Assembly (NCBI RefSeq): GCF_014252955.1
Contig: NZ_JACMIA010000001.1
Coordinates: 1,364,001-1,428,000 of the forward strand
Direction: 5' to 3'
DNA: 64,000 nt
Origin: Stappia sp. 28M-7
Lineage (GTDB): Bacteria; Pseudomonadota; Alphaproteobacteria; Rhizobiales; Stappiaceae
The notes beneath the pieces are model-generated. The model ran no database searches. It saw only the letters and a list, made by a program, of their open reading frames with translations, and was not told the DNA's origin. Made by a program: the position numbers and the translations under genes. Positions within the stretch are counted from its first letter, which is position 1. Each line of letters begins with the position of its first letter. Of this stretch, positions 11,601-31,870 are shown in pieces.

Positions 11601-12065
11601 CGGGGCCTGTGTTCGCAGCGAACCTGAGCGCATGGCTTGCGATCGTTTCAGGGCGAAACCTTAGCGGCGCAGCTTCGGCATCTGCAAGGGGCACGAACGG
11701 CGGACTGATCCGGGGCTGCCGTAAAGGTGCCTGACCGATATTGGGTGGTTCCTTGTATCTGACGAGTGAATTTTCGTCTTTATCGTCAATATCTGTCAAA
11801 AATATCCATGGGGAAAAATGCGATAAGTCTCGAAAATAGGTAATTTTTACATGTCGCATCGAAAGTAATAGCGAGTTGACACCTTGGGCGCGCCATTTAA
11901 GATTGAAAGCGTCAGCCAGCCGTCGCGCGCGGATTGCAAGCGGACTTTCGCCTGCAGCTCCCATTCCGGCCAGCCATCGACAGTGTCCGTCTGCCCCGCC
12001 GGGGCAACGGCGCGGGCTTCGGGGCTGTGGCGGTGGGTGTATCCGGACTATTTCCGACGGTTGCC
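11601..12065. other. Divergent intergenic region with an AT-rich core
   Basis: This gap lies between the SecY-like gene and the first gene of the RiPP operon. Its centre (about 11740-11880) is strikingly AT-rich compared with everything around it. It ends in a promoter-like pair (11876-11903). No convincing small gene was found. The exact right edge depends on the uncertain start of the permease gene. Confidence 0.5.
11876..11903 (+). promoter_or_regulatory. Candidate sigma-70 promoter of the RiPP operon
   Basis: TTGACA at 11876-11881 and TAAGAT at 11898-11903 are separated by 16 bases, just downstream of an AT-rich upstream element. This is the best promoter-like match in the region and points into the permease-precursor operon. 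Transcription would start near 11910. Confidence 0.5.
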
Positions 12066-14462
12066 GTGCTTCGCGCTGTTGCGGCGAAGCTCCGCCGGCA
12101 ATGGCTCAGCTTTGCCCTGCTCTTCGTCGCGCTTGTCGTTGCCGTTGCCGTCTGCGTCGTGCTGCTGGGGGCGATCCGCTACTACTTCGCGCCCGGCCGC
12201 CTGGCCGACGCCGATCTGTGGCGCATCGACACCATCTGGAGCTCCAGCCACTCCGGCGAGAACGGGCGCTGGGCGACCTCGCCGGATCCTCTGGCCCGGC
12301 TGATCCGCCAGAACCACGGCTCGCTCGTCCATGCCGGCCGCTTCACGCCCCTTCGCTCGCAGCTGACGATCGACGACATGTCGCTGCCGGGCGGGGCGCT
12401 TTTCCGCAGTGATCCGCCCTCGCTTGCCGTCTTCGACTGGCGACTGCGGCAGGGCGCCTTTTCCCTCGAGCGGCTGGGTCCTGGCGAGGCCTTGATCAGC
12501 TCCGCCGAGGCGCGGCGCCTTTTCGGCACGCGCGACCCGGTGGGCCAGCGGATCACGCCGGCCCAGCCCGACCGCCGGGGCAAGACCACCACCTATTCGG
12601 TCGCGGCCGTTTTCCAGCCCTTCGCCGAAAATGCCGTCTTCCGACCCGACATCGTCCTTGTCGATGCGGTGCCCGGCGCCATCGACCGGGCGCTGCTGCC
12701 GAGCACGCTGCAGCAGCTGCCGATGGAGTGGCTGCGCCCCAGCGCCTACACCTTTGTCCGCTTCCGGGGGGAGGCAGGACAAGCGCAGGCGGACGCGATC
12801 GCCGCCGACCTCACCACCCGCGCGCCTTATCTGGGCGGCTGGGAGCCGGACTTCCGCGCACGGCCGGCGGCCGGGATCTGGCTGTCGGACGGCGTCTACG
12901 AGGAACTTGTCGCCGCGATACCGACCGGCTCCGCCCGCCTGCTGTGGATCAGCGCGCTCGTGCTGGCGGGCGCAGCGCTCGCCGCGTTCGGTCATGGCGT
13001 CGGGCTCGCCCGCCTCCAGCTCGCGCCGCTGGCCGAGACGCTGGCCAGCCTGGCGGTGCCTCCTGCGGCCGGCCGGCTGGCGCTTGCCGGCTTCGCGGCG
13101 CTGGCGGCGCTCGGTTTTTGCATCGTCGGCACGGCCGCAGGCATCGCCCTGTCGCGTCTTGTCGCGCGGGGCTTGCGGATGGACCCCGCCGCTTTCGCCC
13201 TGACGCCGATGGAGGGGCTGGCCCTTGCCGGGGCAGCGCTTCTCGCCTTCGCCGTCGCGGGGCTCTTGCCGCTGGTCCGCCGACAGGCGCATGCGCGCGC
13301 CGCGCGCCGGATCCTGCCGCTCTGGGCGACATTCGTCGTCTGCGGCACGGCGGCGGGCCTGTCCATCGTGCTGGTAATGCAGCAGCTGCATCTGGCGGGC
13401 CGCGACAGCGGCATGTCGCTGGAGCGTACCCTTGCCCTGCAGGTGGACCAGGACGGCGTTCTCGGCGACCGCCACGACGCCTTCCGCCAGGAGCTCCTGT
13501 CCCTGCCGGGCGTGCGAGAGGTGGGCTTCGCCAAGACCCTTCCCGGCGCGCTGCACGACTACAGCTACATGGAGCTGCGCGCCGCGACCGACCGGCGCCA
13601 GACCGAGAAGCGCTATCAGGCGCTTGCCGCCGATGACGGCTTCCTGCGCAGCATCGGCGTGGTGCCGCTGGCCGGGGCGCTGCCCTCCAACTGGGCCGAG
13701 CGCCGCGACCAGGCCGTGCTCAACCGCAGCGCGGCGGAGCAGCTCGGCTTTGCTTCGCCGAGCGAAGCCGTCGGGCAGCTGCTGCTCAGCTTCGACGGCG
13801 GGCCGCAGGTCAGCCTGCGTGTCGCGGCGGTGGTCGAGGATTTCCGCCTGAACGGCCGCCATGTGCCGAGCCCGCCGCTGGTCGTCTACCACGATCCGCG
13901 CCTGTTCCGCGTCGCCACCATCCGCTTCGATGCGGAAGCCGGCCCCGCGCGCCTTGCCGACGTCTTTCCCGTGTGGTGGCGGCTGTGGTCCCAGACGACA
14001 CCCTCGCGCATCGAGCCGGGGGCGCTTTACGGCGCGGCGAACCGGCCGGCGGAGGGCGCGGCCCTGCTCAGCCTCGGAGCCTGGATCGCCACCCTTGCGG
14101 TGATCGCCGGCGTGCTTTTCGCCGTGATCCGCTTCCGCTCGGTCAGCTGCCGGCGCGAGCTCGGCCTGCGCCAGCTGCTGGGCGCCCGGCCGCTGCAGCT
14201 GGCCCCGGTTCTGGCCAGCCGCCTTGCGGCGCCGCTGCTGCTTGCCATCCCGGTTGCCGCCGCCGCGACCGTCCTTCTCGGGCAGGCGTGGCTGGCGGGG
14301 CAGGCGGACCGCATCGCGGTCACCTCGGTCCCCGTTCTGGCCACCGTCTGCCTCGGGCTGGCGCTCTCGTCGGTGCTGGCTCTCGCCGCGTGTATCGCCG
14401 TCGAGCTCCTGCTGGTTTCGCGGGGGTCGAACCTTGTCGCCACTGCCACGGGAGGAGCCTGA
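12066..14462 (+). CDS. FtsX/MacB-type ABC transporter permease
   Basis: About 798 residues from a GTG at 12066; the open frame continues upstream to about 11934 and GTGs at 12027 and 12033 are alternatives, none with a clear ribosome site. GTG 12066 gives the usual N-terminus VLRAVAAKLRRQWLSF leading into the first helix. Layout: helix, large periplasmic MacB_PCD-like domain (about residues 50-280), three helices, second periplasmic domain, three C-terminal helices: a duplicated FtsX permease. It has no ATPase domain. The likely partners are the MacA-like adaptor (24116-25486) and MacB/LolD-like ATPase (25499-26233) at the far end of the cluster. Likely role: export or self-protection for the modified peptide. 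Confidence 0.75.
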   Translation: MLRAVAAKLRRQWLSFALLFVALVVAVAVCVVLLGAIRYYFAPGRLADADLWRIDTIWSSSHSGENGRWATSPDPLARLIRQNHGSLVHAGRFTPLRSQLTIDDMSLPGGALFRSDPPSLAVFDWRLRQGAFSLERLGPGEALISSAEARRLFGTRDPVGQRITPAQPDRRGKTTTYSVAAVFQPFAENAVFRPDIVLVDAVPGAIDRALLPSTLQQLPMEWLRPSAYTFVRFRGEAGQAQADAIAADLTTRAPYLGGWEPDFRARPAAGIWLSDGVYEELVAAIPTGSARLLWISALVLAGAALAAFGHGVGLARLQLAPLAETLASLAVPPAAGRLALAGFAALAALGFCIVGTAAGIALSRLVARGLRMDPAAFALTPMEGLALAGAALLAFAVAGLLPLVRRQAHARAARRILPLWATFVVCGTAAGLSIVLVMQQLHLAGRDSGMSLERTLALQVDQDGVLGDRHDAFRQELLSLPGVREVGFAKTLPGALHDYSYMELRAATDRRQTEKRYQALAADDGFLRSIGVVPLAGALPSNWAERRDQAVLNRSAAEQLGFASPSEAVGQLLLSFDGGPQVSLRVAAVVEDFRLNGRHVPSPPLVVYHDPRLFRVATIRFDAEAGPARLADVFPVWWRLWSQTTPSRIEPGALYGAANRPAEGAALLSLGAWIATLAVIAGVLFAVIRFRSVSCRRELGLRQLLGARPLQLAPVLASRLAAPLLLAIPVAAAATVLLGQAWLAGQADRIAVTSVPVLATVCLGLALSSVLALAACIAVELLLVSRGSNLVATATGGA

Positions 14463-14575
14463 ACCAAGACCTGTCCGATCACCAGGACTGATCTCCGATG
14501 AAAGCCGTTCGACCGTCTGGGCCGGCCGGCACGAGGGAGTTTCCCGCATCAACGAAGATACGGAAGGAGAATGGA

Positions 14576-14803
14576 ATGCAGCATGTACTCGACATCACGG
14601 CCTCGTCCGCGCACGCGGCCGTCTACGAAAGCTACATCGAGGAAACGGAGCCGATGCTGGCCCGGGCGACCACCAGCGACTGCCTGTCGACCGGCACCAC
14701 GGTCAGCAGCGGCACCGGTTCGTCGGTCGGCAGCTTCTTCTGCATCGGCTGCATAACCGGCACCGGTGGCTACGACTCGGGCTGCAGCAGCTGCCACGAA
14801 TAG
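14576..14803 (+). CDS. Putative RiPP precursor peptide (azole/dehydroamino-acid type)
   Basis: 75 residues, too small for most gene callers. The ATG at 14576 follows GGAAGGAG at 6 bases; an ATG at 14571 is in another frame. Residues 1-30 look like an acidic, helical leader (IEETEP at 21-26, then MLARA). Residues 31-75 are an extreme composition: by count 10 Ser, 8 Thr, 5 Cys (36, 56, 59, 70, 73) and 9 Gly in 45 residues, ending GCSSCHE. That is what YcaO cyclodehydratases and LanB dehydratases act on. Cleavage near residues 30-31 is plausible but unproven. It lies between the permease and the exporter genes, immediately upstream of the modification operon. Confidence 0.8.
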   Translation: MQHVLDITASSAHAAVYESYIEETEPMLARATTSDCLSTGTTVSSGTGSSVGSFFCIGCITGTGGYDSGCSSCHE

Positions 14804-14824
14804 GCTGACGGACCGGGCCCGGGG

Positions 14825-15868
14825 ATGATGAAGACGATGACCGATACCGCTGGTGTCGCGGCCCTGCACGGCGGAAGCTCCGCTGCGCAGAACCGCGGCC
14901 GCCTTCGCGTCTCCGGGCGTTCCGGCCCGTCGGGGCTGATGCTGGACGGGCTGCGCAAGCGCTATGGCGACCATCTGGCGCTCGATGGCGTCAGCCTCGA
15001 CTGCCGGGCGGGGTCGCTGACCTCGCTGCTCGGGCCGAACGGCGCCGGCAAGACGACGCTGCTGGAAATCCTCGTCGGGCTTCGCAAGCCCGATGCCGGG
15101 CGGGCCGAAATCCTCGGCGCGCCGTTCCCCGACCTGCCGCTGGAGCGCCGGCGCCGTGTCGGCATCGTGCTGCAGCAGCAGAGCCTGCCGCCGCTGCTGC
15201 GCACCGACGAATACCTGTCGATGGTCCGCACCGCCTATCGCAGCCGCGACATCCCGATGCACCTGGTCGAGGCCTTCTCGCTCGAGGGCGCCTGGAAGAA
15301 GCGGATCGGCCAGCTGTCCGGCGGCCAGCAGCGCAAGCTGGCGCTCGTCGCCGCGCTGGTCGGCGAGCCGCAGGTGCTGATCCTCGACGAGCCGACGGCC
15401 AGCCTCGATCCGTTCAGCCGCCTGGCCTTCTGGCAGGAGCTGCGGCGGCTGTGCGACCGGGGCGAGGGCGCTTCGGCGATCCTGCTCGCCACCCACGACA
15501 TGGCCGAGGCGACCGAGCTCAGCAGCGACGTGGTCATTCTGGAGAACGGCCGCGTGCGCGAAACCGGCACGCCGGACGAGCTGATCGCGCGCAACGGCGC
15601 GCCGCCGCGTCTGGCCGTGGCGCTGCGCGAGGTGGAAACCGCCGAAAAGCTTCTCGCCGCGCACCCGCAGTTGGCGGCGGACGTGAGCTTGGAGACCGGC
15701 AGGGACGGGACCGTGCATGCGGTGTTCGACGCCGGCCGGCTGGACGCGCTGCTTGCCTCCCCCTTGCGCCCGCATCTCGATCTGGCGCGCCTCAGCCAGC
15801 GCCGCTCGACGCTGGAGGACGTTTTCGTCGCCCTGCTCGGGCCGGGGCTGAAGGAGACACGGCCGTGA
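14825..15868 (+). CDS. ABC-2 type exporter ATP-binding protein
   Basis: 347 residues. Walker A GPNGAGKTT is at residues 70-78, the signature LSGGQQR at 164-170, and Walker B VLILDEPTASLDP follows. A roughly 35-residue N-terminal extension precedes the domain, and a C-terminal 80-residue region ends in the ABC-2 type (DrrA/CcmA-like) segment STLEDVFVALLG. It pairs with the permease that starts within its stop codon. In RiPP clusters such pairs export the product or give immunity. The start ATG (14825) is followed at once by another ATG (14828); the ribosome site is weak. Confidence 0.85.
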   Translation: MMKTMTDTAGVAALHGGSSAAQNRGRLRVSGRSGPSGLMLDGLRKRYGDHLALDGVSLDCRAGSLTSLLGPNGAGKTTLLEILVGLRKPDAGRAEILGAPFPDLPLERRRRVGIVLQQQSLPPLLRTDEYLSMVRTAYRSRDIPMHLVEAFSLEGAWKKRIGQLSGGQQRKLALVAALVGEPQVLILDEPTASLDPFSRLAFWQELRRLCDRGEGASAILLATHDMAEATELSSDVVILENGRVRETGTPDELIARNGAPPRLAVALREVETAEKLLAAHPQLAADVSLETGRDGTVHAVFDAGRLDALLASPLRPHLDLARLSQRRSTLEDVFVALLGPGLKETRP

Positions 15869-16893
15869 ACATGCCGCTGCTCGCCATTCTGGTGCTCAAC
15901 AATTTTCGCGAATACCTGCGGGACTTCACGTCCAGCTTCTTCACCTTCGTGTTCCCGCTGATCTTCGTCGTGATCTTTTTCATGAGCAGCTCCGGCGGCG
16001 GGGCGCCGGGCGCGCTGCCGCTGTCGCTGCAGGGCGATCTCGCCGCGCCCCAGGCGCAGGCGGTGGTCGAGGCTCTGTCCGCAGTTCCCGGCGTGCGGCT
16101 GCTGCCCGCCGGGCATGAGGCGGCGGGGACGGTCACTCTCACCGTGGGGGCGGGCGGGCGCGTGGCCCTGTCCGCGGCGGCCGACCCCTCGCTGGCGCGC
16201 GTGCTGGAGACCGCGATGCTCGCCGCCGCCGGGCGACAGGCCGGCTCCCTGCCGTTCGACTACAGTTTCGAGCCGGTGCGCAGGACCTCGGAGCTGGTGC
16301 AGCTGCTGCCGGCCTTCTTCGCCATGTCGCTGCTGCAGCTCGGACTGTTCGGCACCTCGACACCCTTGTTGCAGCAGCGCGCGCGGGGCGTTTTCCGCCA
16401 CATGAAGACCCTGCCGATCACGGTCGTGCAGATTGTCTCGGCCTTGCTGGTCACCCGGCTGGCGATCGCGTTGGTGCAGATGGTCGGCCTCTATGCCATC
16501 GCCACCGGCTTCTTCGGCTTTCGCATCGAGGGCAGCGGCCTGCTCTTCGCCGCGCTGCTGGCGCTGGGCACCGGGTGCTTCGTTGCCATGGGCTTCGCGC
16601 TCGGCGGCATCATCGGCAACCAGCAGGTCGGGGTGCTGGCGACGCTGGCGATCAACTTCCTGATGCTGAGCTTCGGCAACGTCTTCTTCCAGGTGCCGCG
16701 CGACAGCGCGCTGGCGGTGGTCTCCGACCTGCTGCCGATCACCTATCTCGTCGACGGATTGCGGCAGGCCGCCACGGGCGAGCCGCAGGCCCTGCCGCTG
16801 GCGCTGGTGCTGGCCGTGCTGGCGGCCGCGACCGTGCTTCTGACGGCGGTTTCCGTCCGCTTCTTCCGGTTCGACATGGGGCAACAGGCATGA
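15865..16893 (+). CDS. ABC-2 type exporter permease
   Basis: 342 residues from the GTG at 15865, which has AAGGAG at 8 bases and overlaps the ATPase stop (GTGA); the ATG six bases on is less well spaced. The N-terminal helix FVFPLIFVVIFFM is followed by an extracytoplasmic domain (about residues 45-135) and then five C-terminal helices containing the ABC-2 membrane signature region around residue 270 (FQVPRDSALAVVSDLLPITYLVDGLR). It is the membrane half of the exporter encoded with the preceding gene. Confidence 0.82.
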   Translation: MNMPLLAILVLNNFREYLRDFTSSFFTFVFPLIFVVIFFMSSSGGGAPGALPLSLQGDLAAPQAQAVVEALSAVPGVRLLPAGHEAAGTVTLTVGAGGRVALSAAADPSLARVLETAMLAAAGRQAGSLPFDYSFEPVRRTSELVQLLPAFFAMSLLQLGLFGTSTPLLQQRARGVFRHMKTLPITVVQIVSALLVTRLAIALVQMVGLYAIATGFFGFRIEGSGLLFAALLALGTGCFVAMGFALGGIIGNQQVGVLATLAINFLMLSFGNVFFQVPRDSALAVVSDLLPITYLVDGLRQAATGEPQALPLALVLAVLAAATVLLTAVSVRFFRFDMGQQA

Positions 16894-16936
16894 GGCCGAC
16901 CAAAGGCATGGAACATGTGCAGGAGAGGCACGGCAG

Positions 16937-17848
16937 ATGACGGTTTTGCACGGGGCGCGCTGGGCCTATTTCAAGCTCTATCCGGGCGTGTTCGGGTCCG
17001 GCTTCGACCATCTGGTCGCCAATGACCTGGCGTCCCTGCTGGGCGGCGGCGACGTCGCGAAATGGCACTTCCTGCGCATGACGGACGACGGCGGGCCGCA
17101 TCTGCGGCTGCGCCTGCTGCCGGTCGATCCGGCGGTGCTGGAGCCTTTGGCCGCGCGGGCGCAGCAGCAGCTGGCAACGCTGGTCGCCGAACTGCCGTTC
17201 ACGCCCGAAAGCCCGTTCACGCCGCTGGTCGCCTCGGCCGCGCCTCAGGCCGTGCAAGGGGCGGCGGCGCCTGCGCATTTCGCGCGCGCCCATGTGCAGC
17301 GCGACACCTACGAGCCGGAGACCGGCAAATACGGCACCGGCGAGATGCTGGAGATCTGCGAGACGCATTTCCAGCGCTCCAGCGAGATCGCCGTTGCGGC
17401 CATTGCCGCGGAGCTGCTCGAGGGGCGCTCGCGCAAGTGGATCGCGCCGCTGCTGATGGCCCGCTGCGTGCACCTGTTCGAGCTGCCGCGCTCGCCCCGC
17501 CAGTTCCTCAGTGACTATTGCGACTACTGGATGCGCAGCGCCGATCCCACGCAGGATCATGTCGGCCGCTTCTCCGAGCGGATCGCCGAAATCCGGGCGA
17601 TCCCCTTCGACCCGCTCGACGCGGGCGCGGTGCTCGTCGCCGGCGAGAAGGACCTGCTCGCCCGCTGGGAAGCCTCGATCCGCGAGGTGTCGCGCGCTGC
17701 CCGCCGGCATTTCCCGCAGAACGACAATTTCCGCGACCAGCTTGCCTTCAACCTCTGCCACCTGATGATGAACCGGCTCGGCTTCCCGGCGGTCGACGAG
17801 GCCTATCTCGCCAGCCTCGTTGCCGCGTTCGACGGGGTGCCTGCATGA
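16937..17848 (+). CDS. SpaB_C/TbtC-like elimination protein (thiopeptide-type RiPP biosynthesis)
   Basis: 303 residues, the size of a free-standing LanB C-terminal domain. Recognisable family features: the WHFLRMTDDGGPHLRLR strand pair (residues 43-59), YEPETGKYGTGEML (125-138) followed by the helix ETHFQRSSEIA, and the C-terminal LMMNRLGFPAVDEAY. In split LanB systems (goadsporin GodG, thiomuracin TbtC) this protein removes glutamate from glutamylated Ser/Thr to leave dehydroalanine/dehydrobutyrine. A related paralogue, TbtD, forms the pyridine ring of thiopeptides; only one such gene is present, so pyridine formation is unlikely unless this protein does it. AGGAGAGG precedes the ATG. The stop overlaps the ycaO start. 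Confidence 0.82.
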   Translation: MTVLHGARWAYFKLYPGVFGSGFDHLVANDLASLLGGGDVAKWHFLRMTDDGGPHLRLRLLPVDPAVLEPLAARAQQQLATLVAELPFTPESPFTPLVASAAPQAVQGAAAPAHFARAHVQRDTYEPETGKYGTGEMLEICETHFQRSSEIAVAAIAAELLEGRSRKWIAPLLMARCVHLFELPRSPRQFLSDYCDYWMRSADPTQDHVGRFSERIAEIRAIPFDPLDAGAVLVAGEKDLLARWEASIREVSRAARRHFPQNDNFRDQLAFNLCHLMMNRLGFPAVDEAYLASLVAAFDGVPA

Positions 17849-19185
17849 TCGACGTGTTCGAGAAGGGCGACTTCCGCGCCCGCTTTCCCTGGTCGTCGAT
17901 CCTCAGCCCCTCCTGCGGCATCGTCCAGAGCGTTGCCGGCATCGACGACGAGGAGCTGGGCGTGCCGGACTTCCGCCGCCGCACCGCCAAACTTTGCAAC
18001 GTCTCGCTGGGCTATCCCCGGATCCGCGCCGGCGACGGATCCAGCACGGCCGAGACGCTGACTGCCGGCAGCGGCGGCGACGTGCGCGCCGACCTTGCCT
18101 ATGTGCGCGCGGTGGCGGAGGCGGCGGAGCGCTATTCCAGCGCGATCTTCGACGAGCGCGATTACATCGTCGCCAGCGCCCGCGAGCTCGGCTCGGCGGC
18201 GCTCGACCATCGCCGCTGGCCGAAATGCGATGCGGCGGAACTGGCCGACCCGCGCTGCCAGCTCCATGCCTTCGATCCCGACCGGCCGATCCGCTGGGTC
18301 GAGGGCTATTCGGTGACGCAGTCGCGCACCGTCTGGCTGCCGCTCGTGATGTCGCATCTGGTGTTCGAGCTGTTGCCGGGCGAGGCGTTCTGGGCGCCGA
18401 TCACCACCGGCATCGCGCTGCACAGCTGCCCCTACCAGGCGGCGGTCTCGGCGATCTGCGAGAGCATCGAGCGCGACGCCATCGCCTTGACCTGGAACTG
18501 CCGGCTGCCGCTGCCCCGCCTGTCCTTCGATGTCGAGCCGCCGGCCGAAGTCGGCGAGGCGCTGGGGCGGATCGACGGTCTGCCACTCCAGCATCATTTC
18601 CACGATGCGACGACGGATCTCGGGGTGCCGACGGTCTATCTCCTGCAGAAATACGAGGGTCACCCGCAGCTGGCGACCTTTGTCGGCTGCAGCACCGAGT
18701 TCGACCCCTGGATCGCCTGCGGCAAGGTGGTGCGCGAGGCCTGCGTCGCGCGCACGGCGATCCCGTATTTCCAGGACATTCCCGACGATCCGCTCCAGTT
18801 CACCCGCCTGGAATACGGCGCCACCTACATGGGCCGCCCGGAGCAGGCGGGTGCGTTCGACTTTCTCGCCGGTCACGACCGGGAGAGCCCGATTTCGCGG
18901 TTGGCGCCGGAGTGCGGGCCCGTCGCGCGCGAGCGGTTCGAGTGGCTGGTGCAGCGCTTCCGCGCGCTCGACTTCGAGCTGACCCTGGTCGACCTCACCA
19001 CCGACGACCTGCGCGAGCAGGGCTTGAGCGTCATCCGCGCCTTCACGCCCGACCTGATGCCGCTCGATTTCCTGCCCTCGGCCCGATACCTCGGCCACGC
19101 GCGCCTCTACGACTACCCGCCGAAGGCCGGCTACGGGACGTTCCGCCGCGCCGCCGTCAATCCCTATCCCCAGCCCTTCGCGTGA
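17845..19185 (+). CDS. YcaO-domain azoline cyclodehydratase
   Basis: 446 residues; the start ATG overlaps the preceding stop (ATGA). The ATP-binding signature of YcaO proteins is visible: EAAERYS (residues 92-98) and CESIERDAIAL (205-215), with later acidic segments (GKVVREAC). The C-terminus is proline-rich, ending NPYPQPFA, matching the PxPxP tail that azoline-forming YcaO proteins need for cyclodehydration. It phosphorylates the amide backbone to close Cys/Ser/Thr side chains into thiazolines or (methyl)oxazolines. The short E1-like protein encoded 14 bases downstream should be its partner. Confidence 0.9.
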   Translation: MIDVFEKGDFRARFPWSSILSPSCGIVQSVAGIDDEELGVPDFRRRTAKLCNVSLGYPRIRAGDGSSTAETLTAGSGGDVRADLAYVRAVAEAAERYSSAIFDERDYIVASARELGSAALDHRRWPKCDAAELADPRCQLHAFDPDRPIRWVEGYSVTQSRTVWLPLVMSHLVFELLPGEAFWAPITTGIALHSCPYQAAVSAICESIERDAIALTWNCRLPLPRLSFDVEPPAEVGEALGRIDGLPLQHHFHDATTDLGVPTVYLLQKYEGHPQLATFVGCSTEFDPWIACGKVVREACVARTAIPYFQDIPDDPLQFTRLEYGATYMGRPEQAGAFDFLAGHDRESPISRLAPECGPVARERFEWLVQRFRALDFELTLVDLTTDDLREQGLSVIRAFTPDLMPLDFLPSARYLGHARLYDYPPKAGYGTFRRAAVNPYPQPFA

Positions 19186-19199
19186 GAGGAGCCGACGAG

Positions 19200-19940
19200 A
19201 TGGCCGATTCCCTGGCGCTGTCCTCGCCCGTTTCCGGGGCCCCGGCTACCGCCGCTCCGGTGCTGCAATGCGTGATCTCCGGCGCCTTCGGCCAGCGTGT
19301 GCTGGAGGCCCTGCGCGCCGCCGGCGTGACCATTGCCGGCACCGTTGACCTCGACGGACCCTCGGCGGATCTGGAGAGCCTTGCGGCGGCCGATACGCTG
19401 GCGATCCTCGATTTCGACCGGCCGGACGTGATGGGCAGCCTTTGGGACCGCTTGTCGGTCAGCGGTTCGCGTCTCCACCTCATCGGCCTGTTCGAGGATG
19501 CGCTGACCGTCGGCCCGCAGTTCCGGGCCGGCCGGCCCGGATGCCCGGAATGCTTTGCCCGCCGGCGCCTCGCCATCTCGAGCTATGACGATGCCGGCCG
19601 CCTCGACAAGCTGAGCCGGACCTGTCTGGCCCGCATGCCGTCGGCCCGTCCTGGCTATCCGCCCTACCTGCCGGCCCTCGCCGCGGGTGCTCTTGCCGCG
19701 CGCCTGCGCCGTCCGGCGGAGGAGAATGACGGGCGCTTCCTGCGTTTTCTGACCGACGGCAGCTTTCTGGAGGAGGGGCGTCTTCTGGCGCTGCACGGTT
19801 GCCGCTGCCGAACCGCCGGTGCGGATGCTGCGGGCAACGCCGGCGCTCGGCGGACCAGCCGGCACCTTGCGGACATGCTCGGCCTTGCCGCCATGCCTGT
19901 TGCGGTGCCCACCGGAACGCGGGGGAGCGGGTCATGCTGA
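19200..19940 (+). CDS. Short E1-like (ThiF-fold) cyclodehydratase partner with a four-Cys site
   Basis: 246 residues, much shorter than usual E1-like/ocin-ThiF partners. Residues 21-110 look like a Rossmann-type half (VLQCVISGAFGQRVLEAL...). CPEC at 115-118 and CRC at 201-203 are placed like the zinc tetrathiolate of TOMM E1-like proteins. The N-terminal leader-recognition domain (RRE) found in larger homologues is not apparent; a PqqD-like domain instead fronts the next protein. Role: scaffold that stimulates YcaO. It starts 14 bases after ycaO with a GAGAGGAGCC ribosome site and overlaps the next gene by 7 bases. Confidence 0.7.
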   Translation: MADSLALSSPVSGAPATAAPVLQCVISGAFGQRVLEALRAAGVTIAGTVDLDGPSADLESLAAADTLAILDFDRPDVMGSLWDRLSVSGSRLHLIGLFEDALTVGPQFRAGRPGCPECFARRRLAISSYDDAGRLDKLSRTCLARMPSARPGYPPYLPALAAGALAARLRRPAEENDGRFLRFLTDGSFLEEGRLLALHGCRCRTAGADAAGNAGARRTSRHLADMLGLAAMPVAVPTGTRGSGSC

Positions 19941-22279: not shown

Positions 22280-23208
22280 GCCCGGACACCGCCAGCCTTG
22301 CAGGCCCCTCGGCCCCCTTGCTGCTGCAGGCGGAAGGGCGGCTCTTCATCATCCCGCGCCGGTCGGGTCCCTATGTCAGGGTCAGCGGCCCGCTCTCGCG
22401 CGCCGTGGTGGCGCTGCTCGGCGGGCGCGAGCGCGGCGCGGTGCTGGACGAACTGGCCGCCTCCGGTGAAGCCCGCGCACCCGCGATCCTGTCCGCCGCC
22501 GAAGGCCTGATCGCCCGTCACGCGCTGGCGCTGCCGGCGGACCGGCATGTGCCCAGCCGCCGGGGGCTTGCCTTGTCGGCGGCGATGGGCGCGCTGGCCC
22601 TGGCCTCGCTCATGCTCTGCGCCGGCTTTCTCGTCGCACTGTTTGCGGGAACGGCGAGGGAGGGCGGCTTTCCCCTCTCGTTGGCAACGCTCGGCTGGTT
22701 GCTCGCGCTCGCCCCCGGTCTCGTCGTCCTGCACGAGCTGGCGCATCTGCTGACGGCGCGGCTGTTTGCGGTCAGGCCCTCCGCCGCCGGGTTCCACCGC
22801 GGGCGCTTCGGCCTGCCGATGCCCTGGCTCGACCTGCGCGAGGGGTGGAAGCTGGCGCCGCGCGATCATGCGCTGATCCATCTGGCCGGGCCGGCCTGCG
22901 ACCTGCTGCTCACCGGGGCGGCGGTGCTGGCGCTCTGGCGCGCAGGGGCGCCGGTCGCCTGGCTCCAGGCCTGCGCGCTGGCGGGGACCGGCTTCCTCTT
23001 CGCCAATCTCAATCCCTTTACCCGGAGCGATCTGGTCGGCGCCTGCCGTGCCGCCCTTGCCGATCCCGACTACGGCCCCTGCCGCCTGGTGCGCGGGCGT
23101 CCCGTCGGCCCGCCGGCGCTCCGGCGGCTTGCCGGCCTCTATCTCGCGGTGCTGGCGGTCCTGCCCGCGCTTCTGTGTCTTGCAACCCTTGGAAAGATCC
23201 TGCGATGA
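22276..23208 (+). CDS. M50-like membrane zinc metalloprotease, RiPP-associated
   Basis: 310 residues from a GTG overlapping the upstream stop (GTGA). Residues 20-85 resemble a PqqD-like winged helix (VRVSGPLSRAVVALLGG ... GLIARHALA). Then come membrane helices with HELAH at 153-157 (metal and catalytic residues of HExxH) and a downstream NPFTRSD at 246-252, corresponding to the third-ligand motif of site-2-protease-like enzymes. The HLAGPACDLL segment is also typical. Similar proteins in RiPP clusters (YydH-like) are thought to act on peptide maturation at the membrane. It may remove the leader or cut the product during export. Confidence 0.75.
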   Translation: MSPDTASLAGPSAPLLLQAEGRLFIIPRRSGPYVRVSGPLSRAVVALLGGRERGAVLDELAASGEARAPAILSAAEGLIARHALALPADRHVPSRRGLALSAAMGALALASLMLCAGFLVALFAGTAREGGFPLSLATLGWLLALAPGLVVLHELAHLLTARLFAVRPSAAGFHRGRFGLPMPWLDLREGWKLAPRDHALIHLAGPACDLLLTGAAVLALWRAGAPVAWLQACALAGTGFLFANLNPFTRSDLVGACRAALADPDYGPCRLVRGRPVGPPALRRLAGLYLAVLAVLPALLCLATLGKILR

Positions 23209-24119
23209 AAGCTCTCGTCTCCGTCCTGCTGGGCGTCCTGCTCGCCGTCGCACCGCCGGCGCTCGCGCAGCACGCGGTCGCGCCTCCCGGTCTCAGCGGG
23301 CCGTCCGCCGGTCCCATCGCCGGCGCCAGCGAAAACGTCGAGACCGTCGGCTTCGTCCGCATCGCCGTGGAGGACGTGCCGGCGACGGCACAGTGGCTGA
23401 CGGACGAGATGGGCTTCACCCTGTGGCAAATCGGCGAGCGGGCCAGCGGCGAGCAGAGCGTCATGGTGATGCTGCCGTCGGGCCAGAGCGTCGAGTTCTT
23501 CAGCCGCCGCCCGTTTTACGAGCGGCTGGAGATGAAGGGCGCGCGCACCGTCTCCCTGTCGCTCTATGTGCGCGATATCGCCGCCGCGATGATGGCGCTG
23601 GCCGCGACCGGTGTTCCGACCACGGACATCGTTCCCCTGCATGCGGGCGGCGAGACGACCTATCCGAAGATGTTCGACCTGCTCTTCGTCCGCTCGTTCC
23701 AGTTCCCGCTGTGGAACTTCAGCTTTGCGCAGCGCGATGCCGAGGGCATCGAGAAGGTGCGGGCCGATTATCCCCAATACGACGACCGCAAGTGGCAGGA
23801 GCATGGAAACGGCGCCGACGGACTGGCCGAGGTCTGGTTCGGCGTTCGCGATCTGGAGGCGAGCGAGCGCTCGCTGGCCGAGCTCGCCCTGATCGCGCGC
23901 ACGCAGGAGCAGGGGCCGGGCGAGCGCGTCTATGCGCTGGACGGCATGGTCCTGCGCCTCGTCTCGCCCGATCATCCCGAGCGCGGCGAGGAGATCGCCC
24001 GGCGCATCGAGGCCGGCGGCGAGGGCGCGTTCCATATCGTCTTCCGCTCGGATGCCGGTACGGCCGCATCCGGCGCGCGCGCGATCCCGGGAAGCGAGCT
24101 GCTGCTGGAGGTTCGATGA
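23205..24119 (+). CDS. Secreted VOC (glyoxalase-fold) protein
   Basis: 304 residues; ATG overlaps the previous stop (ATGA). Residues 1-22 form a clear signal peptide (KALVSVLLGVLLAVAPPALAQ), so the mature protein is periplasmic. Two paired beta-alpha-beta-beta-beta repeats follow: VETVGFVRIAVEDVPATAQWL (about 42-62) and GLAEVWFGVRDLEASERSL (about 206-224), as in vicinal-oxygen-chelate proteins. Many VOC proteins bind antibiotics or metals, so immunity by sequestration is possible, but a catalytic role is not excluded. It lies inside the RiPP operon with coupled start and stop codons, so co-expression is nearly certain. Confidence 0.68.
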   Translation: MKALVSVLLGVLLAVAPPALAQHAVAPPGLSGPSAGPIAGASENVETVGFVRIAVEDVPATAQWLTDEMGFTLWQIGERASGEQSVMVMLPSGQSVEFFSRRPFYERLEMKGARTVSLSLYVRDIAAAMMALAATGVPTTDIVPLHAGGETTYPKMFDLLFVRSFQFPLWNFSFAQRDAEGIEKVRADYPQYDDRKWQEHGNGADGLAEVWFGVRDLEASERSLAELALIARTQEQGPGERVYALDGMVLRLVSPDHPERGEEIARRIEAGGEGAFHIVFRSDAGTAASGARAIPGSELLLEVR

Positions 24120-25486
24120 CCTTGCACGAGGCGCCGCGCCCGCATCCCTTCGTGCGTCCCGCCCCGGGTACCGGCGGCGGGCCGTCCGCTGCCGCCGCCA
24201 CGGCGGCGCAGGAGCGGCTGGAGGCGATGGACCGGCCGGTCCGGCGGCCGGTGTGGAAGGCGGTGCTCCTGTGGGGCGCGCTTGCGGCGGCCTGCAGCGC
24301 GCTGATCGGGCTGGCCGCCGCCCGTCTCGACTGGTCCGATGATCGCGTGGTCGAGGTGGCGCGCGGCGATGTGGTGCTCGACCGGGTGCGCCTTGGTGCC
24401 TTCCAGCCGGTTCTGCATGCCACCGGCCAGGTCAAGCCGCGCACCTCGGTTGCGCTCCAGAACAGCATTTCGGGTCGGGTCGATGCCGTCCACGTCAAGC
24501 CGGGCGACCGGGTGAGTTCGGGCAAGCTCCTGTTCGAGCTGTCCAATCCCGAGACGGAGATGAGCTTCTTCAATCTCGAGGTCCAGGTCGCCGAACAGCT
24601 CAACGCCCTGACCCAGCGCGAGCAGAGCCTGGAGCGCGGGCGCCAGGAGGACGAGCTGGAAGTGCTGCGGCTGACCAACGAGATCGGCGAGATCAAGATC
24701 CAGCTCGAGCGCCGCCGTCAGCTGCTGAGCCGGGGCCACGACAAGCCCTTCGAGGTGGAGGCGCTGGTGCGCCAGGAAGGCCATCTCGACACCGTTCTGG
24801 AAATGCGCGTGACCATGCTGAAGTCGCGCATTCAGTGGCAGACCGACCAGCTGCAGCAGGCCCGCACCCTGTCCGGCAACCTGATGCGCAATCTGGAGAC
24901 CGCGCGCGAGTCCCTCGACGCGCTGAACATCCGCGCCACCATGGACGGCACCCTGTCGGACTTCAGCGTCAAGCGCGGCGAGGTCGTGGAGCGCGGCAGC
25001 AACCTGGTGACGCTGTTCGAGCTCGGCACGCCGATCATCGAGGCGGAGGTCGACGAGATCTATCTCGACCGCATCTCGGTCGGCGACGAGGCCAGCTGGC
25101 GCGATGTGCAGGGCGCATGGCGGGCGCTTCGGGTGCGGCGGATCCTGCCGGAGGTGATCGACGGCAAGATCACGCTGGAGATGGACTTCGTCGACGCGCC
25201 GCCCGAGGGGCTCGTCCACGGCCAGCGGCTCGACATCCAGATCCGCACCCGCGCGCTCGCCGAGGACGTGCTGATCGTCGCCAATGGCGGCTTCCTCGCT
25301 CAGACCGGCGGCAACTGGATCTTCGTTCTGGACGAGACCACGGGCCGGGCGGCCAAGGTCCCTGTCGAGATCCTCGCCACCACCCGCGAGGAGGTAGCGC
25401 TGAAGACCGGCCCGGCGGCGGGCAGCGCCGTCGTCGTCTCCTCCTATCTCGGCCTGTCCGAGGCCGACTATCTCAGGATCGAGTGA
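24116..25486 (+). CDS. MacA/HlyD-type periplasmic adaptor
   Basis: 456 residues. A 50-residue cytoplasmic N-terminus precedes one membrane helix (AVLLWGALAAACSALIGLAA). Then come a biotinyl-lipoyl half (ISGRVDAVHVKPGDRVSSG), a long alpha-helical hairpin/coiled coil (about residues 140-275), the second lipoyl half (IRATMDGTLSDFSVKRGEVV) and beta-barrel domains. It should bridge an inner-membrane ABC pump and an outer-membrane channel. The start overlaps the VOC stop and the ATPase follows after 12 bases, so it belongs to a MacAB-like exporter whose permease is probably the gene at 12066-14462. Confidence 0.83.
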   Translation: MTLHEAPRPHPFVRPAPGTGGGPSAAAATAAQERLEAMDRPVRRPVWKAVLLWGALAAACSALIGLAAARLDWSDDRVVEVARGDVVLDRVRLGAFQPVLHATGQVKPRTSVALQNSISGRVDAVHVKPGDRVSSGKLLFELSNPETEMSFFNLEVQVAEQLNALTQREQSLERGRQEDELEVLRLTNEIGEIKIQLERRRQLLSRGHDKPFEVEALVRQEGHLDTVLEMRVTMLKSRIQWQTDQLQQARTLSGNLMRNLETARESLDALNIRATMDGTLSDFSVKRGEVVERGSNLVTLFELGTPIIEAEVDEIYLDRISVGDEASWRDVQGAWRALRVRRILPEVIDGKITLEMDFVDAPPEGLVHGQRLDIQIRTRALAEDVLIVANGGFLAQTGGNWIFVLDETTGRAAKVPVEILATTREEVALKTGPAAGSAVVVSSYLGLSEADYLRIE

Positions 25487-25498
25487 GCAGGACGCGTC

Positions 25499-26233
25499 AT
25501 GCAGATCGAGCTTCACGGCGTCACCAGGCGCTTCCGCAGCCGCGATGTCGAAACCACGGCGCTGAACGGGCTGTCGCTGGAGATCCCGTCCGGCCGCCTC
25601 ACCACGGTCATCGGTCCGTCGGGCTGCGGCAAGACGACGATGCTGGCGATCATGGGCCTTCTGGAGGTGCCGGACGAGGGGGAGGTGCGCTTCGACGGCG
25701 AGCCGGTCTCCCGTCTTGGCCGCCGGCGTCGTCTGGAGCTGCGCCGCGAGCGCGTCTCCTTCATCTTCCAGTCGCTGAACCTCATCGAGGAGATCTCGGT
25801 GACCGAGAATGTCGCCCTGCCGGCGCGCTACATGTCGTTGCCGGCGCGCGAGTGCCGCCAGCGGGCCGAGCAGGCGCTGGAGGAGCTGGGTCTGGGGTTC
25901 CGCGCCGGCCATTTTCCCTTCCAGCTTTCGGGCGGCCAGCGCCAGCGGGTCGCCATCGCCCGGGCGCTGGCGATGCGCTCGGACCTGATCCTCGCCGACG
26001 AGCCGACCGGCAATCTCGACCGGGAAAGCAGCGCCAGCGTGCTGGAGGCGCTGCTCGCCTGCCGGGCGCGCGGCACCACCATCGTTCTGGTCACCCATGA
26101 TCCGGACATTGCCGAGCTGGGCGACTTCGTCATCGAGATGCAGGGCGGCCATGTGGTGCGGGGCCGGGCCGGGGAGCTGGGCAACCGCCAGCCGGCGTCC
26201 TCCGGCCGCTGGGTCGAGGCGATCGCCACATGA
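25499..26233 (+). CDS. MacB/LolD-type ABC ATP-binding protein
   Basis: 244 residues, ATPase domain only. Motifs: Walker A GPSGCGKTT, Q-loop IFQSLNLI, signature LSGGQRQRVAIARALAM, Walker B LILADEPTGNLD, H-switch VTHDP. This is the MacB/LolD family pattern (EPTGNLD). No permease follows; the duplicated FtsX-type permease at the start of the same operon is the natural partner. The last four bases overlap the start of the LanB gene. Confidence 0.87.
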   Translation: MQIELHGVTRRFRSRDVETTALNGLSLEIPSGRLTTVIGPSGCGKTTMLAIMGLLEVPDEGEVRFDGEPVSRLGRRRRLELRRERVSFIFQSLNLIEEISVTENVALPARYMSLPARECRQRAEQALEELGLGFRAGHFPFQLSGGQRQRVAIARALAMRSDLILADEPTGNLDRESSASVLEALLACRARGTTIVLVTHDPDIAELGDFVIEMQGGHVVRGRAGELGNRQPASSGRWVEAIAT

Positions 26234-28416
26234 GCGCGCTTGCCGGCGAAATGGCGCAGGAGCGGCCCCCTGCCGGTGCGCTCCCCGGCGACAGCGCGGC
26301 CCCGCGTGCGGCCTCCGCCGACATGCTGGTGCTGCGGCTCGCGCCCCTGCCGGCGGAGGTGCTGGAGGGGCTGGTGTCGCCCGCCTTTCGTGCGGCGCTT
26401 GCCGCCGCTGGCGCGGGAGACGGCCGCGCGGGGCAGGAGGTGGCCGGCGCTTTGCCCGCCGAGCTCGAGCGCATTCTGGCGGCGCTTCGGGCCATGACGC
26501 TCGATGCCCACGCCCGGTGGGTGCTGGACGAGGTGCAGGAACGGCTCGACCGGCTGGCAGGCACCCTCGGCAAGCCGTCGGAAAAGCCCGGCCGCCGGTT
26601 CCGCGCCGCGATGCGGGCCCTGCGCTATCTCTCGCGCGTCTCGCACAAGACCAGCCCCTTCCAGCGTTACATGGCTGTCGGCATCTGCGAGGGCGATGGC
26701 GCCGCCAGCACCGGCGGCCCGGTCCGCTTCGAGCTGGAAAGCCGCGAGCGCCTGGCGCAGGAGTGGATCGCGGTGCTGCGGCACGGCCATGCCGATGCGC
26801 TCGGCCAGGGCGGCCTGTTCGAGCTCGCCGGAGAGCTCTCCGCCGATGCGGACCGGCTCGACGCGGAGCTGCACACCCTGATGCTGACGCGCGGCACCTT
26901 GTGGCGCACGGGGCGGCGCAAGAGCTTCACCCTGCGCGCGCCGGTCGACCGGATCTTCCGTGCGCTTTCCGGCCGGACCTTCGCGCTGGAGGAGCTGACG
27001 GCGGCCTGCGGCGAGGCGGGGCTTTCGCCGGCGGAAACGGCCGGGCTCGTCCGCGGCCTGGTCGACAGGGGCCTGGTGCGCCGTGCCCCGGCCGGCGTCA
27101 AGGCCGCCGAAGCCGCGCTGGCGGGCGCGCCCGATCCGGCGCTTGTCGGGCGCCTTGCCGCCGACCCGCTGCTGCAGGATGCGCCGCGGCTCTACCGCGA
27201 TTGCTGGATGCGGCTGGACGACCGGCCGGATTATGACGTTGCCGCGATCCGCGACCGGGTCTGCGATGTCTTGCGCGACCTGTCGATGCCCTCGCCGGAG
27301 CACCGGTTGCTGCGCGACCTCTTCCAGAGCCTTGCGCCCGGTAAGGGCGCTTCCCTTCCGCTGCCGCGCCTTGCCGCCGAGATCGAGAGCGCCGCACCGC
27401 AGCTGCTGGCCCGCCTCTCCGACCTGTCGCTGGCGCAGCGTCTTGCCGCCGAAGGCCTTGGCCCGGGCAGTGGCCACCATCCGTTCTGCGCCCACGTCCA
27501 GCCGTTCCGCGAGAACGGCGCGCTGCGGCTGGTGCTGAACGGCACTTTCGACGAGCCGGTCTGGCTCCTGTCCCGCTACACCCAGGGCGAGGATGGCAAG
27601 GCGCTGGCGATGCGCCGCCGCCTGCGCGCATGGCTGGCACGGCAGACCGAGCTGACCAGTGAGCGCTTCGTCGGGCTGTCGCGCGGCGGCGAGGTGAGCA
27701 GCCTGCAGCGCCACGGCGGTCTTGCCGAGCGCTATCTCGCCGGCTTCGCCCCTTCGGGAGATCCGACGCCGGTCCTGCCGCTTGCCGATTGTCATGTCTC
27801 CCTTGCTCCCGGCGGCCGACGGCTGCAGGTGACGGACGGCGAGGGCCTGCCGGTGCGGTTCGTCAATTTCGGCAGCGTCCTGCCGTCGCCCGCCTGGGGC
27901 CTGCACTACTGGCTGATCCACCTGACCGCGCCTGTCGCCGTCATGCGGCCCGGCCTCGACAAGGGCTTCGTCGGCGACGAGACCGCGCCCCGCCGCCACC
28001 GGCCGCGCGAGTATCGCGGCGACTGCGTGCTCTTTCGCGAGACCTGGTACGAAACCTCGCAGGACCTTCTGGACGCGGTATGGAAGGGCGAGGGCGAGGC
28101 GCATCTGCCGACGGCCACGGCGATGACCGCGCTGGCGCGATATTTCCACGAACGCGGCATGCCGGCGCAGGTCTTCGTCGCCCGCAAGCCGGGCATGGAC
28201 TGGCATGCCAGCAACTCCATGGCCAACCGCCACCGCAAGCCGCAATGGATCGACATCGCCAATCCCGTCTGCGTCGCCCTGCTGCGCCGGATCCTGCGCG
28301 AGAGCCGGACCGTGGTGTTCCAGGAGGTGCTTCCCGGCCCGCAGGACCGGCTCGCCCGCGCGGGCGGGGGATCGCATGCGGTGGAGCTGCATCTGGAGGC
28401 GAGCCTGACATGGTAG
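26230..28416 (+). CDS. Split LanB dehydratase, glutamylation domain (TbtB/GodF-like)
   Basis: 728 residues, matching the N-terminal glutamylation part of class I LanB proteins without the elimination domain. The family motif SRVSHKTSPFQRYMAVG is at residues 135-151. C-terminal motifs include a DCVLFRETWY-like strand, the PAQVFVARKPG strand and RKPQWIDIANPVCVALL. It transfers glutamate from glutamyl-tRNA(Glu) to Ser/Thr of the precursor; the SpaB_C protein encoded 9 kb upstream then eliminates it. No LanC cyclase is present, so lanthionine formation is not expected. Residues about 250-280 resemble an embedded winged-helix leader-binding site (inference). The ATG overlaps the preceding stop (ATGA), and the 3' end overlaps the next gene by 7 bases. 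Confidence 0.87.
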   Translation: MSALAGEMAQERPPAGALPGDSAAPRAASADMLVLRLAPLPAEVLEGLVSPAFRAALAAAGAGDGRAGQEVAGALPAELERILAALRAMTLDAHARWVLDEVQERLDRLAGTLGKPSEKPGRRFRAAMRALRYLSRVSHKTSPFQRYMAVGICEGDGAASTGGPVRFELESRERLAQEWIAVLRHGHADALGQGGLFELAGELSADADRLDAELHTLMLTRGTLWRTGRRKSFTLRAPVDRIFRALSGRTFALEELTAACGEAGLSPAETAGLVRGLVDRGLVRRAPAGVKAAEAALAGAPDPALVGRLAADPLLQDAPRLYRDCWMRLDDRPDYDVAAIRDRVCDVLRDLSMPSPEHRLLRDLFQSLAPGKGASLPLPRLAAEIESAAPQLLARLSDLSLAQRLAAEGLGPGSGHHPFCAHVQPFRENGALRLVLNGTFDEPVWLLSRYTQGEDGKALAMRRRLRAWLARQTELTSERFVGLSRGGEVSSLQRHGGLAERYLAGFAPSGDPTPVLPLADCHVSLAPGGRRLQVTDGEGLPVRFVNFGSVLPSPAWGLHYWLIHLTAPVAVMRPGLDKGFVGDETAPRRHRPREYRGDCVLFRETWYETSQDLLDAVWKGEGEAHLPTATAMTALARYFHERGMPAQVFVARKPGMDWHASNSMANRHRKPQWIDIANPVCVALLRRILRESRTVVFQEVLPGPQDRLARAGGGSHAVELHLEASLTW

Positions 28417-29243
28417 GCGCGGTGCGGGGTCTCATCGCCGCTCTGTTTCTGGCGCTCGCCCAATCCGCGCTCGCCCAGCCAACGCCCGCCGACATCGTGA
28501 TCCTCGGCGAGGTGCACGACAACCTGGAAACCCACCTGGCCCAGGCACGCCGGATCGAGGAGCTGCGCCCCGCTGCCGTCGTCTTCGAGATGCTGTCGCC
28601 GGATGCCGCCGACCGCGCCATGCGGGCCGACCGGACGGACCCGGCCGCGCTCGCGGCGGCAACGCGCTGGCATGAGACGCGCTGGCCACCCTTCGATCTC
28701 TACGCGCCGGTGTTTCTCGCAGCCCGGGAGGCGGCGCTTTTCGGCATGGCGGTGACGTCCGGCGAGGCGCGCAAGGCGGTGTTTCTCGGCGCGAGCGCGG
28801 TCTTCGGGGCGCAGGGCGCGCGTTTCGGGCTGGACCGGCCTTTGCCGCGGGAGGAGCAGGCCGCGCGCGAGGCGCTGAAGCTGCAGACCCATTGCGGGGC
28901 CCTGCCGCCGGTGCTGAGGCGCGGCTTCGTCGAGGCGCAGCGCCTGCGCGATGCCGCGCTGGCGCAGGCCGCGCTGTCCGCGTTGGCGGCGCACGGCCCC
29001 CCCGTCGTGGTGATCACGGGCCATGGCCATGCCCGCAAGGACTGGGGCGTGCCCCGGCTGATCGCGCGTGCCGCCCCGCACGTCACCGTCCACTCGGTCG
29101 GCTATGTCGAGACGGAGGACGGGGCGCCCTTCGACGAGACGGTTCTGGTGCCGGCCACCCCGCGCGCCGATCCTTGCGCGCGCTCCGTCCGCCCTCGGGC
29201 CGATGCCGCTCCCGGAAAGCTCAGTCGCCGGCCGCCGCCGTGA
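28410..29243 (+). CDS. ChaN-family (DUF399) haem-binding-like secreted protein
   Basis: 277 residues; a 7-base overlap with the LanB gene couples them. Residues 1-23 are a signal peptide (GLIAALFLALAQSALAQ), with no lipobox cysteine visible. The mature start DIVILGEVHDNLETHLAQ is the ChaN/Tiki-superfamily signature, where Glu and His residues face the active or haem-binding groove. A late ITGHGHARKDWGVP segment is also typical. Known ChaN proteins bind haem; relatives are metal-dependent peptidases, so a role in leader trimming in the periplasm is a fair alternative. Last gene of the RiPP operon; its 3' end overlaps the convergent tetR by 23 bases. Confidence 0.75.
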   Translation: MVGAVRGLIAALFLALAQSALAQPTPADIVILGEVHDNLETHLAQARRIEELRPAAVVFEMLSPDAADRAMRADRTDPAALAAATRWHETRWPPFDLYAPVFLAAREAALFGMAVTSGEARKAVFLGASAVFGAQGARFGLDRPLPREEQAAREALKLQTHCGALPPVLRRGFVEAQRLRDAALAQAALSALAAHGPPVVVITGHGHARKDWGVPRLIARAAPHVTVHSVGYVETEDGAPFDETVLVPATPRADPCARSVRPRADAAPGKLSRRPPP

Positions 29244-29784
29244 CCGGCACCAGGCCGAACCGCGCCTCCAGCAGGGCGATGTCGACACCGTCGTCCGCGT
29301 TGCCGTCCGCCGCCTGCTCCCCGACCAGCCGCCGCATGCCGAGCCCGCGCAGCGCGGAGAGGAACATCGTCACGTCCGGATCGCCCGGCGGCCGGCCGTA
29401 ATAGGCCGCGACCCTGGCGTCGAACCGGGCCATGTGCTCGTCGACCAGGACTTTCAGCTCCGGTTCCAGCTGCGCTTCCAGGATCAGGCTGAGGAAGAAT
29501 CGCATCCGGCCGGGATTGGAGGTCAGGACCGCCAGCCCCTTGCGGATCGCCTCGGGGGCAGGGGGCGCGGGCGGCGTCCCGCCGGCATCCGCGTGGTGCG
29601 GCAGGTGGCCCTGCAGCAGGCCCTTGATCAGGTCGATCTTCTTGGGAAAGTAGTAGGTCAGGTGCGACTGGCGCACGCCGGCCGCCTTTGCCACCTGCGG
29701 CTGGGTGAACTTCTTCACCCCATAGGTCTGCATCAGGTCCAGCGCGGCCCTCAGGATCTTTTCACGTACTGGATCGTCCGCCAT
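29221..29784 (-). CDS. TetR-family transcriptional regulator
   Basis: 187 residues from the ATG at 29784, with GGAGGGG just upstream. The N-terminal helix-turn-helix is standard (residues about 19-48: TYGVKKFTQPQVAKAAGVRQ then SHLTYYFPKK). The ligand domain is helical and not assignable. It sits downstream of, and on the same strand as, the TonB receptor-MFS-methyltransferase genes, 106 bases after the methyltransferase stop, and may control them. Candidate operators lie in front of the receptor gene at 34103-34149. Confidence 0.88.
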   Translation of the reverse strand: MADDPVREKILRAALDLMQTYGVKKFTQPQVAKAAGVRQSHLTYYFPKKIDLIKGLLQGHLPHHADAGGTPPAPPAPEAIRKGLAVLTSNPGRMRFFLSLILEAQLEPELKVLVDEHMARFDARVAAYYGRPPGDPDVTMFLSALRGLGMRRLVGEQAADGNADDGVDIALLEARFGLVPVTAAAGD

Positions 29785-29890
29785 GGACCCCTCCATGAAA
29801 GCATCTGCGCACCCGCGTCGGCGCGAAAGCGGGACGACCGACACGTAAGCCATCGGCCCGGCGAACGGAACCCGCTGCGCGTCGCCCGCC

Positions 29891-31866: not shown

Positions 31867-31870
31867 GACG

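Follow-up and report, generated by a model that had tools for sequence, protein, structure and literature searches.

The best-known peptides that combine azoles with dehydrated residues, goadsporin and the thiopeptides, come mainly from Gram-positive bacteria. Here we describe a cassette of this logic, predicted to make a ribosomally synthesized and posttranslationally modified peptide (RiPP), in the alphaproteobacterium Stappia sp. 28M-7; it lies in a 64,000-nt stretch (the window; positions 1364001-1428000 of contig NZ_JACMIA010000001.1) of a 5.13-Mb genome that is 99.98% complete. For goadsporin (Streptomyces sp. TP-A0584), the azoles are described as being made first, GodF requires them before it glutamylates, and the GodA-H set includes the acetyltransferase GodH and the peptidase-ABC transporter GodB (PMC5303826). 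Goadsporin is reported to have a fused cyclodehydratase, and berninamycin and TP-1161 discrete ones (PMC4603692). The sulfomycin azole set, SulD/E/F/G, is described as a discrete YcaO, an E1-like protein, a dehydrogenase containing a RiPP recognition element (RRE), and a second dehydrogenase (PMC10634744). A 2021 in silico survey described TfuA-linked clusters in Proteobacteria whose lanthipeptide dehydratases are split, which it likened to goadsporin biosynthesis; most of its azole clusters have fused cyclodehydratases, and neither Paracoccus nor Roseivivax is mentioned in its main text (PMC8120280). Dehydrazoles (carnazolamide) also carry azoles and dehydro residues, and their clusters, found mostly in Proteobacteria and Actinobacteria, are described as using a LanM-type DUF4135 dehydratase and a long nitrile-hydratase-like leader, unlike the Stappia cluster (PMC10676384); no Pfam match to DUF4135 was found among the 14 Stappia cassette proteins.

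The cassette consists of 14 genes on the forward strand (12066-29243; Table 1), several of which share a few bases with a neighbor, as is typical of operons. The order is FtsX-type permease, precursor, DrrA-like ATPase, ABC-2 permease, SpaB_C, YcaO, E1-like partner, SagB fusion, M50 protease, VOC protein, MacA-like adaptor, MacB ATPase, LanB glutamylation protein, and ChaN. A preliminary description of this DNA had claimed that one operon encodes YcaO, an E1-like partner, a SagB-type oxidase, and a LanB dehydratase split into glutamylation and elimination proteins; profiles, models, and synteny bear this out and confirm that the cluster is genuine. Profile searches recovered YcaO (TIGR03604 and PF02624) and SpaB_C (PF14028), and the TIGR03882 match of the E1-like partner fell under its cut-off. 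The YcaO protein itself does not match TIGR03882; the E1-like partner is a separate gene whose product carries a CPEC pair that, by eye, resembles a zinc site. A proline-rich C terminus such as that of this YcaO is a hallmark of azole-type YcaO proteins, and an azole-type YcaO (over the TIGR03604 cut-off) beside a Cys/Ser/Thr-rich precursor places the locus in the broad class of linear azol(in)e-containing peptides, or thiazole/oxazole-modified microcins. A profile search related the N-terminal part of the dehydrogenase fusion to PbtF (E 8e-4) and MusD (E 2e-4). By published description, as opposed to comparison with Sul sequences, this domain layout matches that of SulDEFG (PMC10634744), except that in Stappia the dehydrogenases are fused, the cassette has no second YcaO set (SulB/C), and there is no pyridine synthase match. 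Split profiles place the two dehydrogenase domains in separate genes in 6 of the 8 Gram-positive loci listed. The idea that the fusion occurs only in Gram-negative bacteria was dropped, as Amycolatopsis (L064) also has a single frame; Nonomuraea (L050) is arranged otherwise. The fused protein may provide a simpler version in which to study the multiprotein sulfomycin azole complex.

The SpaB_C structure model is nearest to the elimination domains of MibB and MadB, and residues R57, R59, E128, and H275 are invariant in 14 homologues. The LanB protein has an embedded RRE-like domain (approximately residues 195-286), and within the PDB the LanB family finds its best sequence match in GodF; PDB phmmer searches with the LanB protein alone or the SpaB_C protein alone returned nothing useful. 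Some annotated lantibiotic dehydratases are reported to be peptide aminoacyl-tRNA ligases (PEARLs) (PMC11212132). A PEARL role for the Stappia LanB protein, attaching amino acids to a scaffold peptide instead of dehydrating a core, is extremely unlikely, given that the protein's nearest folds, TbtB and GodF, are both glutamylation enzymes and that an elimination-type partner gene is present in all 16 clusters with the same core gene order (see below).

Goadsporin and Stappia thus have in common a YcaO with a dehydrogenase and a split LanB (GodF/GodG in goadsporin), and the Stappia chemistry should work like that of goadsporin. Azoles and dehydroalanines, both present in goadsporin, are also predicted for the Stappia product. 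The Stappia cluster, unlike that of goadsporin, has a discrete YcaO, an M50 protease, and two exporters. Although its LanB is split, it is not a member of the goadsporin family, because the YcaO is unfused and the cassette has no acetyltransferase (no Pfam acetyltransferase model matched any of the 14 proteins at E 0.01). The earlier label “goadsporin-like” therefore fits the combination of azole formation with split-LanB dehydration but not the layout of the azole machinery, which is discrete and sulfomycin-like.

To place the cluster among its relatives, we used a YcaO tree of 91 rows, built by a quick method with Shimodaira-Hasegawa-like approximate likelihood ratio (SH-aLRT) support only and with long-branch warnings, L043 among them. 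The window YcaO groups with those of Stappia sp. TSB10P1A and a Nitrospirales metagenome-assembled genome (MAG) (support 99). The enclosing clade (support 99) has 19 rows (17 proteobacterial, 1 Nitrospirales MAG, and 1 Dehalococcoidia MAG) that are not all independent, as Paracoccus onubensis, Roseivivax, and Serratia each appear twice. The core order SpaB_C-YcaO-E1-like-SagB-LanB is found in 16 of the 19: the window, 13 other proteobacterial loci, and the two MAGs. The exceptions are a Sphingomonadales locus with SpaB_C and without LanB in the DNA examined and two Massilia loci with neither. These 15 other loci, together with the split LanB proteins of the 2021 survey as described there (PMC8120280), correct the earlier statement that the order and accessory genes match no cluster known to its author: the arrangement is not unique, and comparable enzyme logic in Proteobacteria has already been reported. 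By its published account, that survey (PMC8120280) required TfuA, for which the Stappia cassette showed no gene. No product for any of the 15 loci turned up in the literature searched; nor was the Stappia/Nitrospirales subtype (exported VOC and ChaN proteins and a core ending in CxxCHE) found in that literature, which omits most subscription journals. The cluster of Nitrospirales MAG OFTM51 (L027) encodes homologues of all 13 nonprecursor Stappia cassette proteins at 24 to 52% identity, with its ChaN gene upstream on the opposite strand, and its precursor ends in CGGCHE; as this is a MAG, a binning error is possible. The proteobacterial clusters L018 (Paracoccus aminophilus pAMI4), L028-L036, L042, and L088 have the Stappia core order, and 8 of these 12 have precursors related to that of Stappia; they have no VOC or ChaN homologue in the locus DNA examined, and the precursors found lack CxxCHE. 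Through Stappia, this branch of 15 further loci is connected to a precursor, a cassette with defined limits, and what looks like a full set of azole-plus-dehydro enzymes.

The precursor open reading frame (ORF), upstream of the DrrA-like exporter genes, was assigned because it is conserved and not because of its composition; the composition filter let through 3 of the window's 301 small ORFs and so did not single it out. The two Stappia versions are unlike at 18 codons, 11 of these changes being silent, with nonsynonymous and synonymous rates (dN and dS) of 0.054 and 0.240, and the precursor is under purifying selection. Three of the 7 amino acid changes are Ser/Thr exchanges, and all 5 Cys residues are untouched. 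Eleven of the 15 other same-order loci yielded 12 precursors that could be aligned with that of the window. The leader EE is invariant in 15/15 alignment rows (2 Bacillales rows among them), and SDC marks the core start in 12 of 13 same-order rows, window included. A motif-pattern search found no precursor in the other 4 loci (L029, L034, L036, and L042); the DNA examined begins 5.0 kb (L034) and 2.6 kb (L042) before YcaO. The probable core starts at about residue 32 (TTSDCLSTGTTVSSGTGSSVGSFFCIGCITGTGGYDSGCSSCHE), which gives a putative core of 44 residues with 5 Cys and 18 Ser/Thr.

From these assignments we infer each chemical step and the sequence in which they occur, where the leader is cut, how the peptide is exported, and what it does, as follows. 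The 75-aa precursor would be made on the ribosome and its EE leader held by the RRE-type domains of the fused dehydrogenase and LanB. YcaO and its E1-like partner would convert some core Cys, Ser, and Thr residues to azolines, which the fused SagB/nitroreductase protein would oxidize to azoles. The LanB protein would then glutamylate remaining Ser/Thr residues with glutamyl-tRNA as the donor, and the SpaB_C protein would eliminate glutamate to give dehydroalanine and dehydrobutyrine (Dha/Dhb). The M50 protease would cut off the leader, and the FtsX-like permease, MacA, and MacB would together form a MacAB-type exporter that moves the peptide out, with the DrrAB-like pair acting in export or in self-protection of the producer; the peptide would likely serve as a secreted antibacterial or signal. 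Taken as a whole, a mobile RiPP cassette for an exported, probably linear azole and Dha/Dhb peptide is a likely reading of the locus; what the data themselves show are the gene identities, the conserved precursor, the limits relative to one other genome, and profile searches that matched neither of the two ring-closing enzymes. A peptide of this kind from a Gram-negative bacterium that exports it by a MacAB-type system would reveal how such a cell synthesizes, releases, and withstands it.

A linear product, which the preliminary description also favored, is preferred because there is no pyridine synthase or LanC match and only one SpaB_C gene in the whole genome; the azole and Dha/Dhb part of that earlier view is in keeping with these findings, and the product is probably linear. 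In each of 7 other genomes or MAGs of the cluster family, too, the cluster's own SpaB_C is the sole stand-alone copy, which argues against a pyridine-forming thiopeptide; Pseudoalteromonas rubra has an extra SpaB_C match within a 1049-aa frame that is probably a full-length LanB. Such a thiopeptide would require either that the single SpaB_C act as a [4+2] cyclase or that an unrecognized type of cyclase be present, and we regard it as decidedly unlikely. YcaO, an azole dehydrogenase, and a split LanB, a set also expected of thiopeptide clusters, are all present, and the azole genes share the layout described for sulfomycin. The thiocillin family model is matched by the Anoxybacillus precursor (E 8e-11, over cut-off) and, under cut-off, by those of Paracoccus (E 2e-4), Nitrospirales (E 0.008), and Serratia (just E 0.17). 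The SpaB_C fold is also common to PbtD and TbtD, with NisB and PbtD tied, so that the fold alone is not decisive. However, a SpaB_C acting as a cyclase would leave the cluster without an elimination enzyme, and the protein keeps elimination-type residues, with PbtD differing at the His. Moreover, at E 10 neither the window's genome nor that of the second Stappia matched the pyridine synthase model NF045556, in a search that had no positive control, as none of the 10 genomes searched passed its cut-off.

The composition of the putative core would also supply a lanthipeptide-azole hybrid, in which free Cys residues add to Dha/Dhb to form thioether rings, spontaneously or through an unrecognized cyclase. 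Sulfomycin SulD prefers Ser/Thr, and if the Stappia YcaO did so as well, Cys residues would remain free. Against this hybrid, which is unlikely, LanC_like (PF05147) had no match in the genome, the identical search being positive in 1 of 14 control genomes; a LanC-type class I lanthipeptide was rejected on this empty search.

The cassette looks transferred and is probably mobile, because the two Stappia genomes share the block without sharing its flanks, its G+C content is higher (~0.70 to 0.74, versus ~0.63 to 0.69 for most surrounding DNA), and its YcaO occurs in few related genomes (2 of 14 Stappia genomes and 3 of 87 in the family, counting one distant match of 29% identity). Block limits were set by blastn of window positions 4001-40000 against 31.5 kb of Stappia sp. 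TSB10P1A, and on either side of the block no homology was found in the stretch compared. At E 1e-40, a YcaO search of 397 genomes of the order, the window's own included, gave no other match; neither did a LanB search of 385 genomes of the class, likewise including the window's own, at E 0.001, and an IMG/VR search with the SpaB_C protein returned nothing useful. Minus-strand TetR, methyltransferase, MFS, and TonB-dependent receptor genes (29221-34075) were rejected as cassette parts because the block common to the second Stappia stops at 29195. A second genomic YcaO (contig position 1560208, in locus L002, 1558708-1562694), ~178 kb from the cluster YcaO, was rejected as a member of the system; it is over the PF02624 cut-off and under that of TIGR03604, and it is followed by an ORF that by eye resembles a transcriptional regulator.

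Table 1. Features of the Stappia sp. 28M-7 cassette (window positions)
Feature	Position	Strand	Evidence
Whole cassette block	11842..29195	.	81% identical in Stappia sp. TSB10P1A (blastn)
Divergent MacB/FtsX-type ABC permease, 798 aa	12066..14462	+	Pfam FtsX only E 4.9
Precursor peptide, 75 aa	14576..14803	+	91% identical in Stappia sp. TSB10P1A; alignable with relatives' precursors
ABC exporter ATPase, DrrA-like	14825..15868	+	PF00005 E 5e-29; best NCBIfam match DrrA, under cut-off
ABC-2 permease	15871..16893	+	PF12698 E 9e-22
SpaB_C / LanB elimination protein, 303 aa	16937..17848	+	PF14028 E 1e-33
Discrete YcaO cyclodehydratase, 446 aa, C terminus PYPQPFA	17845..19185	+	TIGR03604 E 4e-74; PF02624 E 3e-54
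E1-like / leader-binding-type partner, SulE-like position	19200..19940	+	TIGR03882 E 4e-6, under cut-off
Fusion of RRE/E1-like, SagB dehydrogenase, and second nitroreductase domain, 781 aa	19934..22279	+	TIGR03605, PF00881
M50-type intramembrane metalloprotease, candidate leader peptidase	22276..23208	+	HELAH motif; PF02163 E 0.0012, under cut-off
VOC/glyoxalase-fold protein, signal-peptide-like N terminus (by eye)	23205..24119	+	PF13669 E 2e-6
MacA/DarC-type periplasmic adaptor	24116..25486	+	NF038010 (darobactin exporter adaptor DarC) E 1e-32
MacB-type ABC ATPase	25499..26233	+	PF00005 E 5e-34
LanB glutamylation protein, 728 aa	26230..28416	+	Nearest folds TbtB, GodF
ChaN-like (Tiki superfamily) protein, signal-peptide-like N terminus (by eye)	28410..29243	+	PF04187 E 9e-36

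Among the accessory genes, the FtsX-type permease has an uncertain start (its 798 aa are counted from the GTG at 12066), and its homologue in L027 (31% identity) matches MacB_PCD (E 2.8e-9). The adaptor scores 113 bits against NF038010, compared with a cut-off of 450, and the M50 protein matches the daptide HExxH protease model (E 2e-10) under cut-off. Of the 15 other same-order loci, two (L026 and L027) have VOC and ChaN homologues in the locus DNA examined, and a CxxCHE C-terminal end is seen in 3 precursors (window, L026, and L027) versus none of the 10 other aligned same-order precursors. Since these three form one clade, the co-occurrence counts as a single evolutionary observation. The ChaN-like protein belongs to a family that is heme binding by its Pfam name, and both it and the VOC protein are apparently exported. 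The CxxCHE end might then stay unmodified and bind heme or metal in the periplasm with these two proteins as partners, a very unlikely idea that, if true, would give an azole/Dha peptide bearing a c-type-cytochrome-like motif in the Stappia/Nitrospirales subtype.

Adjoining the cassette upstream is a gene for a divergent, 388-aa SecY-like protein (10467-11633), with a partial SecY match only, under the TIGR00967 cut-off; of the 13 other Stappia genomes, 3 have copies 87 to 91% identical, and all 3 lack the YcaO. Elsewhere, an uncultured Sphingomonadales locus (L043) has two TFG/CCC-rich precursor-like ORFs (6407-6894) with SpaB_C, YcaO, and SagB genes and no LanB in the DNA examined. On an Anoxybacillus amylolyticus plasmid (L025), the cluster has two precursor-like genes (18324-18704), one annotated as a thiocillin family RiPP, and one SpaB_C gene, a second not being seen in the stretch. 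Finally, the P. aminophilus cluster (L018), unlike that of Stappia, has extra TfuA-YcaO and MoaD/MoeB genes: MoaD/ThiS, MoeB, and a second YcaO with TfuA flank it (4364-5768 and 20232-22819), which suggests that a sulfur-carrier relay supplies an additional thioamide.

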